Of a stretch of DNA of 45,547 bases, positions 35,726 through 40,908 are shown piece after piece; position 1 is the first letter of the stretch; every line of letters starts with the position of its first letter. The notes under the pieces are model-generated. The model was not told where the DNA came from. It made no database searches and saw nothing but the letters and a program-made list of their open reading frames with translations. The translations under genes were made by a program, and so were the position numbers. This stretch comes from Rhodothermales bacterium (GTDB lineage Bacteria > Bacteroidota > Rhodothermia > Rhodothermales > JABDKH01). Location of the stretch: NCBI GenBank assembly GCA_013002345.1, contig JABDKH010000305.1, forward strand, positions 1 to 45,547, in the 5' to 3' direction.

Positions 35726-36142
35726 CTACCTGTACTTGGTCAGGCTGCACTCGTTGGACCTGCCTTTCGCGCGATACTCTACATGATCCATCAGGCGACG
35801 CATGATCTGCACGCCGAAGCCTCCGGCCTTTCCCTGCCGCGCGAAATCAAAAATGTCTGGTTCCTGGTAAGTGTTCTGGGAGAACGACTCGCCCTCATCG
35901 CGGATCCGAACGGTGAAGCGGTCTGGTCGGACGATCACATCGACATCAATATTGTGTGAGTCATCCCCTTTGTAGGCATGCTCGATGACGTTGGCACATG
36001 CCTCGTCTACGGCGATTTTGAGCTCACCGACATCCTTGGCGGCGAAGTCGGCCTCCAGTGCATGTTGCTCCACAAAACGACGCACGTCCTCCAGAAAGCG
36101 CGTCGAGCTCGGAATAGTCAACGTATGTATTGATCGAGACAC
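35726..36142 (-). CDS. RsbW-like anti-sigma factor / serine kinase (HATPase_c)
   Basis: The 138-residue GHKL ATPase of the RsbW/SpoIIAB type has the N-box AVDEACANVIEHAYKG (about residues 44-59), the G1-like IRDEGESF and the G2 box GGFGVQIMRRLMD. Such kinases bind a sigma factor or other target and phosphorylate a STAS antagonist on Ser. The STAS protein lies 14 bases upstream on the same strand and a matching phosphatase precedes that. No sigma factor is adjacent, so the final target is unknown. Confidence 0.93.
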   Translation of the reverse strand: MSRSIHTLTIPSSTRFLEDVRRFVEQHALEADFAAKDVGELKIAVDEACANVIEHAYKGDDSHNIDVDVIVRPDRFTVRIRDEGESFSQNTYQEPDIFDFARQGKAGGFGVQIMRRLMDHVEYRAKGRSNECSLTKYR

Positions 36143-36156
36143 GGGGCTGGTGTGCG

Positions 36157-36513
36157 CTAGCCGCCGTTTGACTGGAATTTGGAAATCGCGTCTTCCTCCG
36201 AATCGACGATGTCAAAGAGCATCGGGAAGCCGAGGAGGTCGAATACGTTGTACACGCGTGGTTGAAGCGCGGCGATTTTTATGTCGCCACCCTGTTCTCG
36301 CAATTCCTCTATGTACGCCATGAAGACGCCAAGGCCGGCGCTCGAGATATACTGTAGATTCTTGCCATTGACCACAATGCTATGGTTGCTTGCGTCTCGG
36401 CATTTCTGAATCGCGGCCTCCAGCTCGGACGCAGTGTGCGCATCCAGCTCTCCATTAAGCTCGAGAATCTGTATAGAGCCGTTGGTGCGGAAGCCGACAG
36501 AGAAATTGCTCAT
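36157..36513 (-). CDS. STAS-domain anti-anti-sigma factor (RsbV/SpoIIAA-like)
   Basis: The frame extends upstream to 36603, but the STAS fold starts at the ATG at 36513 (MSNFSVGFRTNGSIQILELNG), giving 118 residues. The phosphorylation loop reads YISSAGLGVF (about residues 54-63), with the usual Ser. Its dephosphorylated form should bind the RsbW-like kinase encoded 14 bases downstream; the PP2C phosphatase upstream should reactivate it. The C-terminus has an extra segment (SEEDAISKFQSNGG). Confidence 0.94.
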   Translation of the reverse strand: MSNFSVGFRTNGSIQILELNGELDAHTASELEAAIQKCRDASNHSIVVNGKNLQYISSAGLGVFMAYIEELREQGGDIKIAALQPRVYNVFDLLGFPMLFDIVDSEEDAISKFQSNGG

Positions 36514-36574
36514 GGGTATTCGATTGATTGTGTTGCCGTGGTTAGCCCGGTCCGCCAAAATTACGGAAAATGGA

Positions 36575-38809
36575 TCATGCTTCGGGAAGCTCTGTGGTCG
36601 CAAATGCAGGCGAAGAGGCGATTTTACTGACCTCGATGCCGTGCCATTTTAGAACTACCAGGGTTGTATCGTCATCATATTCAGCTTTCCCAACAAAAGA
36701 GTCGAGATCTCTGAACAACACGGAGTGAAGATCGCCGGCCTCTTCGTGTCGATTGTTGCACAGAATTGACAACAGCCGGTCGTAGCCGTACTCCGCGCCG
36801 GCAGGATTGCGGCTTTCGACGACGCCGTCCGTGTATAGAGCAAACACGTCGCCAGGCTGCAGGTTGATCACCTCTTGCGACAGTGTTTCCGAGAATAGGG
36901 CGCTTATATCCAATCCGAGCCCCATCCCGTTTGTTCTGAGAAGTCGCGCCTTCCCGTCAATGCCGATTCTGGCAGCAGGGCAGTGGCCTGCGCGGGCCAT
37001 CGTCAGGGTCTCAGCAGCCACGTCGACAACACCGTAGATCACAGAGACGAACACGTTTCGTTCGAGAGTGGCCGAAAGGGCAACGTTCGCATTCATCAGG
37101 AAGTCGACTGGCGATGTACTGATACGGCTCAGAGAACGGAAGATCCCCTGCATTTCGGCCATATAGAACGCTGCAGACGTTCCCTTGCCGGACACGTCGG
37201 CTACGATAAAGGCAAGTCTGTCGTCATCCAGCTTGAGGAAGTCGTAATAGTCTCCTCCCACTTCCTGCGCCGGGACGCTGTTGGCGGCAATTGATAGCCC
37301 GGCCATCGCGGGCAGAATTTGCGGAAGCAGCTTGCGCTGGACCTCGCGAGCAATCGCAAGTTCGCGAGACAGCCGTTCACGATCGATTCGCTCCTCGAAC
37401 AGACGCGCGTTGTCGATCGCGAGCGCAGCCTGAGCTGCAAAAACACCGATCGCGTTGACGTCATCCCGCTCAAACCCCTGACTGACCTCCTTGGTTACGA
37501 AGAGGGCGCCAAGGACCTCATCGCGAGCCAGGAGCGGCACGGCCAGGAGACTCCCGATTCCCTCTCCGGGTTTGAGCCGTACCCGGTGGTCTGCCGGTGC
37601 CTGTTCCAGCAAGACATCGGCACCTGACTCCTTCACCTCATCGAAGATCGCGTCGACATCTACCGAAGACAGAACCTGATCCGTTGTCATTCCTCCCGAA
37701 GCCACAACCATGGGAGCGAGCGACGGAGACGAACGGTCCGGAATCGCAAGCCACGATGCACTCGCGGCGCCGGCCTCCAATGGTGACATCACGATTGAGG
37801 AGTAGAGCTTGTCCGGCTCCATCACCTGGCCAACGAGATGCGTGAACGAATGCATCGCGGCCAGCTCGCCCGCCCTCTGCTGGAAATCGCTAGTGGTAGG
37901 GAGATGAAAGAAGAGCGAGAGAAGGGCCGTCGCGGTGTACAGAATTCCGAAGATGATCGATAGCGTGACGAACTGAGAAAGCGGATAGCTGTAGTGCTTG
38001 ATGAACGTGTAGCTCGACGGTATGTCCAGCGCGTCTGCCGCCACACTGTCCTCCATTATGCCGATACCGGACAGCAGCAGGATCAGGATGAAAGCCATCC
38101 CGATGCAAATGATTTTTTCGGAGAACCTGAGGAAGACAATCCACGACAGTCGAAGCGAGTTGACCACCATGAAACCGACGGCGGGTATGATGGCCAGGCG
38201 CTGCCATGCCGTCGGTTCGGACTCCGGTGATTTGCCGAAAGTCAGTGCGGACGCGAACACCATGAGGCCGAGCATCAGATACCAGTTTCGCTGACTGGAT
38301 CGAGTACGCTTGACGAGTACGAGGTCTCGAAATCGGAGAAGCAGGATGAACGAGAAGACTGCGCCGCCCAGACTGAGCACGGTCATCTTTAGAATCGTCG
38401 CCGGTACCAGGGGTCGGCCGGTTTCATACTCGAAACCGAGCGACGCTGACGCCAGGCCGGGCATGTCCGGCGGCTTCCCAAAAGTCGTGACCAGGTAGTG
38501 AACGACCAGGAAGCCCAACCCGGCAATCAGCGGTGACCAGAACACCCGGATGGATGATGTCGGTCGATCGCGAAAGCGCTCCGAGAGAAACAAGTAGACG
38601 ATCAGATAGCCGAACAGAACGACGAGCTCGTACACGAACTTCCCGACCATGCCCGCCGGTGCAGCATTCTGCAACGTCAGAACATGGTAGCCCACCCCGA
38701 GTGCGATCGCGACGGTCGCCACGGCTGCCAGCAGCCAGTCACGTGCTGGTCTGGTAGCACCAAAGAAGGGCAGGCTACCTATATGTGAGCGGCGGACGGA
38801 ACCTTCCAT
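36575..38809 (-). CDS. Membrane-bound PP2C (SpoIIE/RsbU-type) phosphatase with GAF sensor domain
   Basis: The 744-residue protein has about eight predicted transmembrane helices between residues 24 and 300. A GAF domain follows at roughly 318-470 (MHSFTHLVGQVMEPDKLY, later VPLLARDEVLGALFV), then a helical linker (SRELAIAREVQRKLLPQ) and a PP2C catalytic domain at about 500-722. Metal-site motifs are GGDYYDF, VADVSGKGTSAA, LYTDGVVE and YDDDTTLVVL. It should dephosphorylate the STAS protein encoded 61 bases downstream. The membrane part plus GAF implies sensing of an envelope or small-molecule signal. It is divergent from the repeat protein at 39061. Confidence 0.94.
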   Translation of the reverse strand: MEGSVRRSHIGSLPFFGATRPARDWLLAAVATVAIALGVGYHVLTLQNAAPAGMVGKFVYELVVLFGYLIVYLFLSERFRDRPTSSIRVFWSPLIAGLGFLVVHYLVTTFGKPPDMPGLASASLGFEYETGRPLVPATILKMTVLSLGGAVFSFILLLRFRDLVLVKRTRSSQRNWYLMLGLMVFASALTFGKSPESEPTAWQRLAIIPAVGFMVVNSLRLSWIVFLRFSEKIICIGMAFILILLLSGIGIMEDSVAADALDIPSSYTFIKHYSYPLSQFVTLSIIFGILYTATALLSLFFHLPTTSDFQQRAGELAAMHSFTHLVGQVMEPDKLYSSIVMSPLEAGAASASWLAIPDRSSPSLAPMVVASGGMTTDQVLSSVDVDAIFDEVKESGADVLLEQAPADHRVRLKPGEGIGSLLAVPLLARDEVLGALFVTKEVSQGFERDDVNAIGVFAAQAALAIDNARLFEERIDRERLSRELAIAREVQRKLLPQILPAMAGLSIAANSVPAQEVGGDYYDFLKLDDDRLAFIVADVSGKGTSAAFYMAEMQGIFRSLSRISTSPVDFLMNANVALSATLERNVFVSVIYGVVDVAAETLTMARAGHCPAARIGIDGKARLLRTNGMGLGLDISALFSETLSQEVINLQPGDVFALYTDGVVESRNPAGAEYGYDRLLSILCNNRHEEAGDLHSVLFRDLDSFVGKAEYDDDTTLVVLKWHGIEVSKIASSPAFATTELPEA

Positions 38810-39006
38810 TATCGGGGTTTTCTCTCACTGCGGCGGTGGATCCATGCAAGTATGCCGGTGCAGGCATCCAACGGCCGCGCAAACCTTAAACATAACCCTC
38901 GCGCGGTCGTCTTGCATCTGCGCGAACTCCGACCTACGCAGATTTTGAAGCCTCGTTGCGATTGTCGGCTGGAACTTCCTTCTCAGATTCCGGACCGGGA
39001 AGAGAG

Positions 39007-39014
39007 TAACTTTG
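39007..39014 (+). promoter_or_regulatory. Possible Bacteroidota-type -7 promoter element
   Basis: TAACTTTG matches the TAnnTTTG consensus used by the Bacteroidota primary sigma factor and lies 46 bases before the repeat-protein start. I see no convincing TTG at the usual -33 distance, so this is weak. The rest of the 251-base divergent region (38810-39060) holds no gene or strong repeat that I can see. Confidence 0.3.
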
Positions 39015-39060
39015 CACGCTTACGGCCGTACACGGACTACCGAATCAAATCAGGCTCACT

Positions 39061-40908
39061 ATGCGGAACAAAAAGGTAGTTCGCTTCCAGTTATTCGTCC
39101 TGGCGGCATTGACGATCGGACTGGTAGCGCGCGTCATGATAGGCCCGGGCTCTCCAGACGGACTCGTCGTGATGTCCAACTTTGACTCCTCGCCTCTCGG
39201 CGTCTCGAAGGCCGTTGCGAAACTGGAACACGCGTCCTTCAGCCTGGACAGCGCAGAGCCATTTGTTGTGGAGGCAACGGGTTCGATCGAGGAAAAGTTT
39301 GATCCGTCACGGCCCGTGCCGGCGCTGGCTGCCTATCCCTGGATCCTGGATCGATCCAGCAGGAACGTTGTGTGGAAGATGGAGCCGACCAACGTCCAGA
39401 TCGAGAAGACCACGCTTGCGCGAAGTACGGCAACCGTTACGCTTGGTCCCGGTGCATACGATGTTTACTTCACCACGTACGGAAACACACGGTCGTCGAG
39501 GAAAGCCGGCAACCTGTTCAAGTCACTCCTGGGTACGCACTGGACGGCTGACGTGACAGAATGGAGCTTTGTGCTGTCGTCGGGTTTGCAAGAGGGGAGT
39601 ACGCGCTTCGTTGCCGTGACGGAAGATGACGCGAGCTCCGTGCCTCTTGTAGAGCGAGTATTCTGGAGTACGGGTCCACTCGGCAATCAGGCGAAATCGG
39701 AACTGGTGTTCCAGGTCTCCGATGATTTGTCGCTGAGCCTTTACTCCATTGGCGAGATTTGCCGACGCAACGAATGCGACTATGGCTGGATTGAGGAAGC
39801 GTTTTCGGGAGATCGGGTGTGGGAGCTTAACGAGGCGAACTCGGACGCCGCCGGCGGAATGGCCGAGAATCGGCAATGCCGCCAGGATCTAAGTCTGGAG
39901 CCCGGACTTTACCGGGCGGTATTCAAGACGGATGGCGCCCACGCTTACGATGACTGGATCGCCAATCCGCCTTTCGATCCGTCCGGCTGGGGTTTGACTC
40001 TCTACCTGAACGATGACGCCGACGCATCCTCGATTGCCGCCTATGACCCGTGGAAAAGTGCGACGCCGATGTTGCGCATCAGCGACGTCGGTAATGATGA
40101 GCATCGACAGTTGCAGTTTGTCGTGTCCGATACGGTAGGAGTCGTGATGCACGCTGCGGGGGAACTGAGGCGCAGCGGCAACCTTTATGATTACGGCTGG
40201 CTGCGAAACGACTCCAATGATGAGAAGGTCTGGGAGATGAGTTGGGCGGCCTCGTATCCCGGTGGGGGTCATAAGGGCAATCGCGAGGAGACGGCGTTTG
40301 TCAGGCTCGTGCCCGGCACCTATTCGCTCTACTATCAGACGGACGACTCGCATGCGTTCGGGAAATGGTCAAACGGGATCCCGGATCACCCCGACAGATG
40401 GGGCGTCGCGATGTTTCCATTTGGTGGCTCCGAAAGCATTCGGGTTATTGAGTCCAAAGAGGATACCGGACCAGCCAAAATGATGGCTCCTCTTCCGCCG
40501 GTTTCACCGGGGCAGGGTCCTACCACCGGCACCGTGCTACTTGATGCCCGCAGTCTCGGCAATGAGCAGGAGGTGAAGCACGCGTTCAGCCTTGACAAGA
40601 CGACGCGCCTGCGAGTGGTGTCCGTCGGTGAGATCTCGATGAACGGTCGGTACGACTACGGCTGGCTCGAGACCACGGACGGGAATACGGTCTGGGAAAT
40701 GAACTATACGGATACGGCGCCGGCAGGTGGCGATGACAGGAACCGCAAGTTTGACGGAGTGATCGAACTCCAGCCCGGCACATACGTCGTCCGGTTCAAG
40801 ACTGACTTCTCTCATGCGTTCGGAGATTTCGGAGACGATGCCCCCACCGATCCGTCGGCGTGGGGAATCGTAGTTCGGGTCCTCGATTCGAAGCAGTCTG
40901 CCCGCTGA
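39061..40908 (+). CDS. Exported protein with four copies of an unrecognised beta-rich module
   Basis: I do not recognise this 615-residue family. One hydrophobic segment (residues 8-27) is a signal or anchor without a lipobox. The rest contains three clear copies of a module of about 105 residues (near 212-317, 348-453 and 504-609) and one degenerate copy (about 60-145). The module runs: GE[IL], DYGW[IL] (Asp at 240, 377, 532), VWE[ML] (Trp at 254, 391, 545; VWKM at 105 in copy 1), a GG and NR segment, PG[TLA]Y (Pro at 130, 281, 418, 572), a [KQ]TD...HA[FY] block, then WG[LVI]. The Trp-to-Pro spacing is exactly 27 in copies 2-4 and 25 in copy 1. A periplasmic or surface beta-sandwich array is inferred. 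prmA follows after 7 bases and the PP2C phosphatase is divergent. Confidence 0.8.
   Translation: MRNKKVVRFQLFVLAALTIGLVARVMIGPGSPDGLVVMSNFDSSPLGVSKAVAKLEHASFSLDSAEPFVVEATGSIEEKFDPSRPVPALAAYPWILDRSSRNVVWKMEPTNVQIEKTTLARSTATVTLGPGAYDVYFTTYGNTRSSRKAGNLFKSLLGTHWTADVTEWSFVLSSGLQEGSTRFVAVTEDDASSVPLVERVFWSTGPLGNQAKSELVFQVSDDLSLSLYSIGEICRRNECDYGWIEEAFSGDRVWELNEANSDAAGGMAENRQCRQDLSLEPGLYRAVFKTDGAHAYDDWIANPPFDPSGWGLTLYLNDDADASSIAAYDPWKSATPMLRISDVGNDEHRQLQFVVSDTVGVVMHAAGELRRSGNLYDYGWLRNDSNDEKVWEMSWAASYPGGGHKGNREETAFVRLVPGTYSLYYQTDDSHAFGKWSNGIPDHPDRWGVAMFPFGGSESIRVIESKEDTGPAKMMAPLPPVSPGQGPTTGTVLLDARSLGNEQEVKHAFSLDKTTRLRVVSVGEISMNGRYDYGWLETTDGNTVWEMNYTDTAPAGGDDRNRKFDGVIELQPGTYVVRFKTDFSHAFGDFGDDAPTDPSAWGIVVRVLDSKQSAR

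Follow-up and report, generated by a model that had tools for sequence, protein, structure and literature searches.

What does the gene transcribed away from a membrane PP2C operon in this Rhodothermales genome encode, and does its product take part in the signalling switch that the operon specifies? The window (the whole stretch of DNA analysed, 45,547 nucleotides) contains, on the plus strand, a repeat-protein gene with the following parts.

39061..40908, plus strand: repeat-protein gene, encoding a putatively membrane-anchored four-module protein (ATG at 39061, stop ending at 40908; 615 aa; orthologues)
39073..39153, plus strand: predicted N-terminal transmembrane anchor, residues 5-31 (hydropathy; model helix 4-27; N-termini of 37 orthologues)
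39166..39582, plus strand: module 1, degenerate, lacking GE, DYGW and TDxSH; a beta-sandwich in the model (pairwise comparison, model, module profile)
39646..40020, plus strand: module 2, with GEI, DYGW, VWEL, AGG, NR, PGLY, TDGAHAY and WG (pairwise BLAST, motifs, model)
40054..40434, plus strand: module 3, with GEL, DYGW, VWEM, GGG, NR, PGTY, TDDSHAF and WG (pairwise BLAST, motifs, model)
40465..40509, plus strand: linker between modules 3 and 4, residues 469-483, probably disordered (model, pLDDT <50)
40522..40893, plus strand: module 4, used as reference in the single-module model (pLDDT 95.9; model, Foldseek)

The original prediction, made from the letters alone, described three clear modules and one degenerate copy with a shared motif set and a constant spacing, and each of these features is borne out. 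The degenerate copy is N-terminal and the three clear copies follow it. Modules 2-4 match one another in pairwise BLAST with E values of 1.6e-22 to 5e-27 and shuffle z scores of 32-38. Their motifs recur in register: GE[IL] at protein residues 231, 367 and 523, DYGW at 240, 377 and 532, VWE[LM] at 253, 390 and 544, PG[LT]Y at 281, 418 and 572, TDxxHA[FY] at 290, 427 and 581, and WG at 310, 447 and 601. The offset from the V of VWE to the P of PGxY is 28 in all three, which leaves the predicted 27 residues between them. Module 1 has weak similarity to the other modules (z 4.4-5.1). We nevertheless regard it as a genuine relative, because in homologues outside the order the module profile picks up a fourth copy, at E values down to 4e-15. 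One sub-lineage has shortened orthologues of 443-474 aa that comprise modules 1-3 and lack the C-terminal module (L074-L077, L079, L080, L082).

The repeat module is a family without a name in the libraries searched. No named domain with this motif set had been recognised at the outset, and searches of Pfam, NCBIfam and PDB sequences with single proteins and with module profiles returned nothing over threshold. Specifically, the repeat protein has no Pfam match to CUB, PPC (PF04151) or GOLD, a search of its own genome with PF00431 (CUB) found none, and a viral fold library gave nothing useful. Weak Pfam-type matches to SrfA, FAP42_B3 and AMPK1_CBM were scattered and were not accepted. DUF5013 (PF16405) was likewise set aside: it reached a best E of 2.7e-6 in a few relatives, below its cut-off (27.4 bits in L120 against a gathering cut-off of 28.5), and did not match the window protein. 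A separate survey for DUF5013 found no match in 41 genomes, and none in the controls either. The weak FAP42_B3 match and the best full-length fold matches (7sqc chains 1B and 1D) both lead to ciliary central apparatus proteins, probably by analogy.

Structure prediction and a Foldseek search, which had been suggested with the original prediction, give confident beta-sandwich modules with distant neighbours. The full-length model, built from 32 sequences, has a mean pLDDT of 85 and consists of an N-terminal helix followed by four beta-sandwiches. A single-module model from a stack of 88 modules forms a jelly-roll beta-sandwich. Its neighbours are CUB domains (MAp19, C1r/C1s, MASP-2), the GOLD domain of p24/TMED1, PPC and subtilase domains, at E values of about 1e-3 and TM scores <0.6. 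Because Foldseek lists CUB, GOLD and PPC at such scores, the predicted fold is best described as a CUB/GOLD/PPC-type jelly roll without a close relative. The original prediction had also raised a ligand or carbohydrate site; none of these closest folds is specifically a carbohydrate module.

Might the modules belong to the calcium-binding CUB domains after all, as a far-diverged prokaryotic branch in which Ca2+ mediates the binding of basic side chains, as in C1s CUB1? MAp19, C1s and MASP-2 are among the top structural matches, and CUB (PF00431; C1r/C1s/MASP) resembles the module in being a jelly roll of about 110 residues and, by alignment, in having acidic residues where one strand ends and its successor begins and a D-x-S that follows a late strand. 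In C1s CUB1, Glu45, Asp98 and Ser100 contact lysine and Asp53 lies in the calcium site (PMC4222235), a set that the E-x7-D and D-x-S patterns of the module resemble. An hhalign comparison also sets the YD and TD-S motifs of the module on those of CUB, at an overall probability of 3.5% (score 18.6 against 12.3 for a reversed control), which is not significant. Yet TM scores to CUB are 0.49-0.56, and the module lacks conserved cysteines. It also has additional AGGxxxNR and W-G-I signatures and a longer loop between the late Asp and the last strand, while bacterial CUBs of the phylum have a shorter E-to-D step. Further, GOLD (p24/TMED) and PPC fit about equally well. Both are beta-sandwiches (TMt 0.52-0.58), and PPC has a PGxY turn ahead of its late strand as the module does, but their conserved residues are different. 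The profile comparison with PPC (probability 3.3%) is not significant, nor is that with P_proprotein, with reversed alignments as controls. As neither the CUB nor the PPC comparison is significant, we place the module in neither family, and we consider it improbable that the modules are true calcium-binding CUBs.

The acidic signature itself is well conserved across the 88 modules. E37 is Glu in 80/88, D45 is invariant, and D95 and H98 are each kept in 82/88; the full E, D, D, H set is complete in 72/88. In modules 2-4 these residues are the Glu of GE, the Asp of DYGW and the Asp-x-Ser-His of TDxSH, and they sit at strand ends and in loops; in module 4 they correspond to E524, D532, D582, S584 and H585. 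Their placement along the strands looks like that in C1s CUB1: a Glu closes one strand, an Asp opens the following one, and D-x-S comes once a late strand has ended. The step from Glu to Asp is eight residues in 48/88 modules and varies between 5 and 11 across the family, for which reason we do not use it as proof of CUB membership. By analogy with calcium-binding CUBs, the signature could plausibly form a ligand site assisted by a metal. This is a guess, since TM scores stay below 0.6 and the CUB profile comparison is not significant.

The N-terminus places the protein at the membrane. In a reading of the N-termini of 37 orthologues, the PP2C-locus proteins start with basic residues followed by a hydrophobic helix, mostly ending in a basic residue, and no AxA or other signal-peptidase cleavage site is evident in them. 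Wherever the start is readable, paralogues and the homologues from elsewhere carry a normal signal peptide. When the N-terminus is left out of the tree, a single branch with 100% SH-aLRT separates the anchored PP2C-locus proteins from the secreted homologues. We therefore amend the description of the protein as exported: an extracytoplasmic part is still proposed, and 'anchored' is the better word. We propose a single-pass inner-membrane protein with extracytoplasmic modules.

Upstream of this gene, and on the opposite strand, lies the operon.

38810..39060, no strand: intergenic region that both divergent genes share, without a match to a sigma-70-type promoter
36575..38809, minus strand: membrane PP2C phosphatase with a multi-TM N-terminus, GAF and SpoIIE domain, transcribed away from the repeat gene (Pfam, hydropathy, conservation)
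36157..36603, minus strand: STAS-type anti-anti-sigma-like protein whose uncertain start probably lies inside the ORF (sequence, orthologues, operon context)
35726..36142, minus strand: RsbW-like HATPase, an anti-sigma-like kinase (sequence, orthologues, operon context)

The SpoIIE domain of the phosphatase matches PF07228 at E 8.5e-43, and by hydropathy the protein has some seven hydrophobic segments and, in its N-terminus of about 310 aa, lacks a large ectodomain. The STAS and HATPase proteins of the window are assigned by BLAST and synteny rather than by Pfam scan; the relative at L115 matches Pfam STAS. As in RsbU/RsbV/RsbW partner switching, the operon thus encodes PP2C, STAS and HATPase proteins. 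We know of no counterpart of the repeat protein in the classical Bacillus RsbU/V/W system.

Orthologues of the repeat protein occur in 82/119 related genomes, spread over almost every family of the order, with none found in the sampled genomes of family f13. Most named matches are from Rhodothermales; Calditrichota and Ignavibacteriae contribute others. The repeat and PP2C genes occur together in 78/119 genomes, the repeat gene alone in 4 and the PP2C gene alone in 7; the genomes are related, so a Fisher p for this co-occurrence is not independent. In 70 of the 78 the two are divergent neighbours, and the pairing is therefore kept across an order. Among the remaining eight, some have a gene on a short contig, and in G011 and family f3 the genes are truly apart.

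This pairing has two explanations that need no contact between the products. The first is that the genes are linked by expression alone, both being controlled from a shared intergenic region. The genes are divergent and the shared region is short, with a median gap of 304 bp between matches (range 171-885 bp in 70 genomes). A promoter and terminator scan, which does not cover Bacteroidota-type promoters, gave no promoter-like match or terminator. Since the module is fused to signalling proteins in relatives (below), which suggests a physical sensing role, we rate this explanation as very improbable.

The second is more serious. The repeat protein may be a general envelope protein whose modules bind periplasmic glycan, peptidoglycan or protein, serving structure or processing independently of the PP2C switch. 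The whole block pfkA-ubiE-PP2C-repeat-prmA-ppx-mrp-nifU is syntenic. Consequently, the pairing alone is weak evidence for a functional link, adjacency may be old, inherited gene order, and the repeat gene may travel with prmA-ppx-mrp-nifU. Its ORF ends 7 bp upstream of the prmA ORF, and in G011 it stays with prmA and not with PP2C. Either gene can also occur without the other, as in the 7 and 4 genomes above. In G033 and G075 the phosphatase is present and its gene directly adjoins prmA, the repeat gene being absent from between them; conversely, genus g8 (G008, G040, G070, G106) has the repeat protein and lacks the phosphatase. At the g8 locus L042 (G008), the PP2C gene is gone and the STAS and HATPase genes still adjoin the repeat gene. 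Where blocks are broken, the repeat gene lies beside PP2C somewhat more often (L040, L048, L050, L052, L053) than beside prmA (L038, L042). In favour of a link to the phosphatase, the pair is intact at two loci from which prmA/ppx have gone (L050, L052).

Homologues elsewhere also bear on the envelope explanation. Secreted four-module homologues outside the order mostly do not adjoin a PP2C gene, and have other neighbours, for example Omp85-like or transporter-like genes. The genome of the window has a second, secreted four-module paralogue (G000:C187, L051). At L124 and L130, secreted four-module genes are followed by an Omp85-like barrel gene; a sensor kinase gene lies on the other side of the four-module gene in L124 and further downstream in L130. 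At L119:6041-7600 (+) a beta-lactamase-like serine hydrolase carries a fused module at its C-terminus, and because of this protein the module cannot be considered confined to signalling. At L120:5916-6299 (-), a stand-alone 128-aa module ORF adjoins a serine-hydrolase-like gene. Against a general envelope role stand the restriction of the anchor to the PP2C-locus clade and the fusion of the module to SpoIIE sensors and its presence in their operons. On balance, we regard such a role as a real possibility, though one we do not favour.

These fusions came to light when 395 genomes of the phylum were searched with the profile, which gave single modules in proteins of ~1250-1330 aa. The proteins combine a Reg_prop propeller, Y_Y_Y and an output domain, with the module inside the propeller half. 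Among those with a complete C-terminus, 18/20 end in SpoIIE and 2/20 in a histidine kinase, and the acidic signature is retained in nearly all of the embedded modules. At ten loci, module-bearing sensor genes adjoin RsbW-like HATPase, STAS and PP2C genes. The order HATPase-STAS-PP2C followed by a one-module propeller-SpoIIE gene is seen in other classes of the phylum (L115, L184, L185, L187, L189-L191, L194-L196). In a control set of 30 Y_Y_Y proteins from the same genomes, the module is present in 5/7 SpoIIE types and 0/23 others (p 1.5e-4); the genomes were picked for having the module, a choice that does not account for a SpoIIE bias within them. A literature search for propeller-SpoIIE proteins found nothing.

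What Reg_prop/Y_Y_Y sensors with SpoIIE or HisKA output have in common with the window protein is membrane-linked signalling and the module, of which some of these sensors carry one copy within the propeller half. The window protein differs in that it has four modules and neither a propeller nor an output domain in the cytoplasm. A link to envelope sensing had been thought conceivable from the divergent gene order. Conserved pairing is weak support, given the synteny of the whole block; the link gains real support from the fusion of the module into SpoIIE phosphatases. Judging from these architectures, the module is probably a sensor piece of the signalling switch.

We propose that the repeat protein is the extracytoplasmic receptor part serving the partner-switch phosphatase in trans, a reading to which we give a probability of roughly 0.45. 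An anchored protein beside a PP2C phosphatase without a large ectodomain suggests that the former supplies the outside part to the latter. The repeat protein would be a single-pass inner-membrane protein, its outside part a chain of four jelly-roll modules distantly like CUB, GOLD and PPC, and would act as receptor or co-receptor ectodomain for the divergently encoded multi-TM GAF-PP2C phosphatase. Binding of a ligand outside would alter phosphatase activity inside, and PP2C activity would in turn set the phosphorylation state of the STAS protein and hence the free level of the RsbW-like kinase/anti-sigma. More speculatively, the system could be a split receptor, with the module, as a new family of extracytoplasmic sensory domains, in cis in propeller-SpoIIE proteins of some bacteria and in trans with an ectodomain-less PP2C in Rhodothermales, with Ca2+-assisted binding of a ligand; this fuller version we hold to be rather doubtful.

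To our knowledge, outside sensing by membrane partner-switch phosphatases is poorly known in Gram-negative bacteria. The module common to anchored proteins and sensor phosphatases would offer a testable sensing part and a new domain family for the databases, and it may represent a prokaryotic analogue of calcium-dependent CUB recognition.
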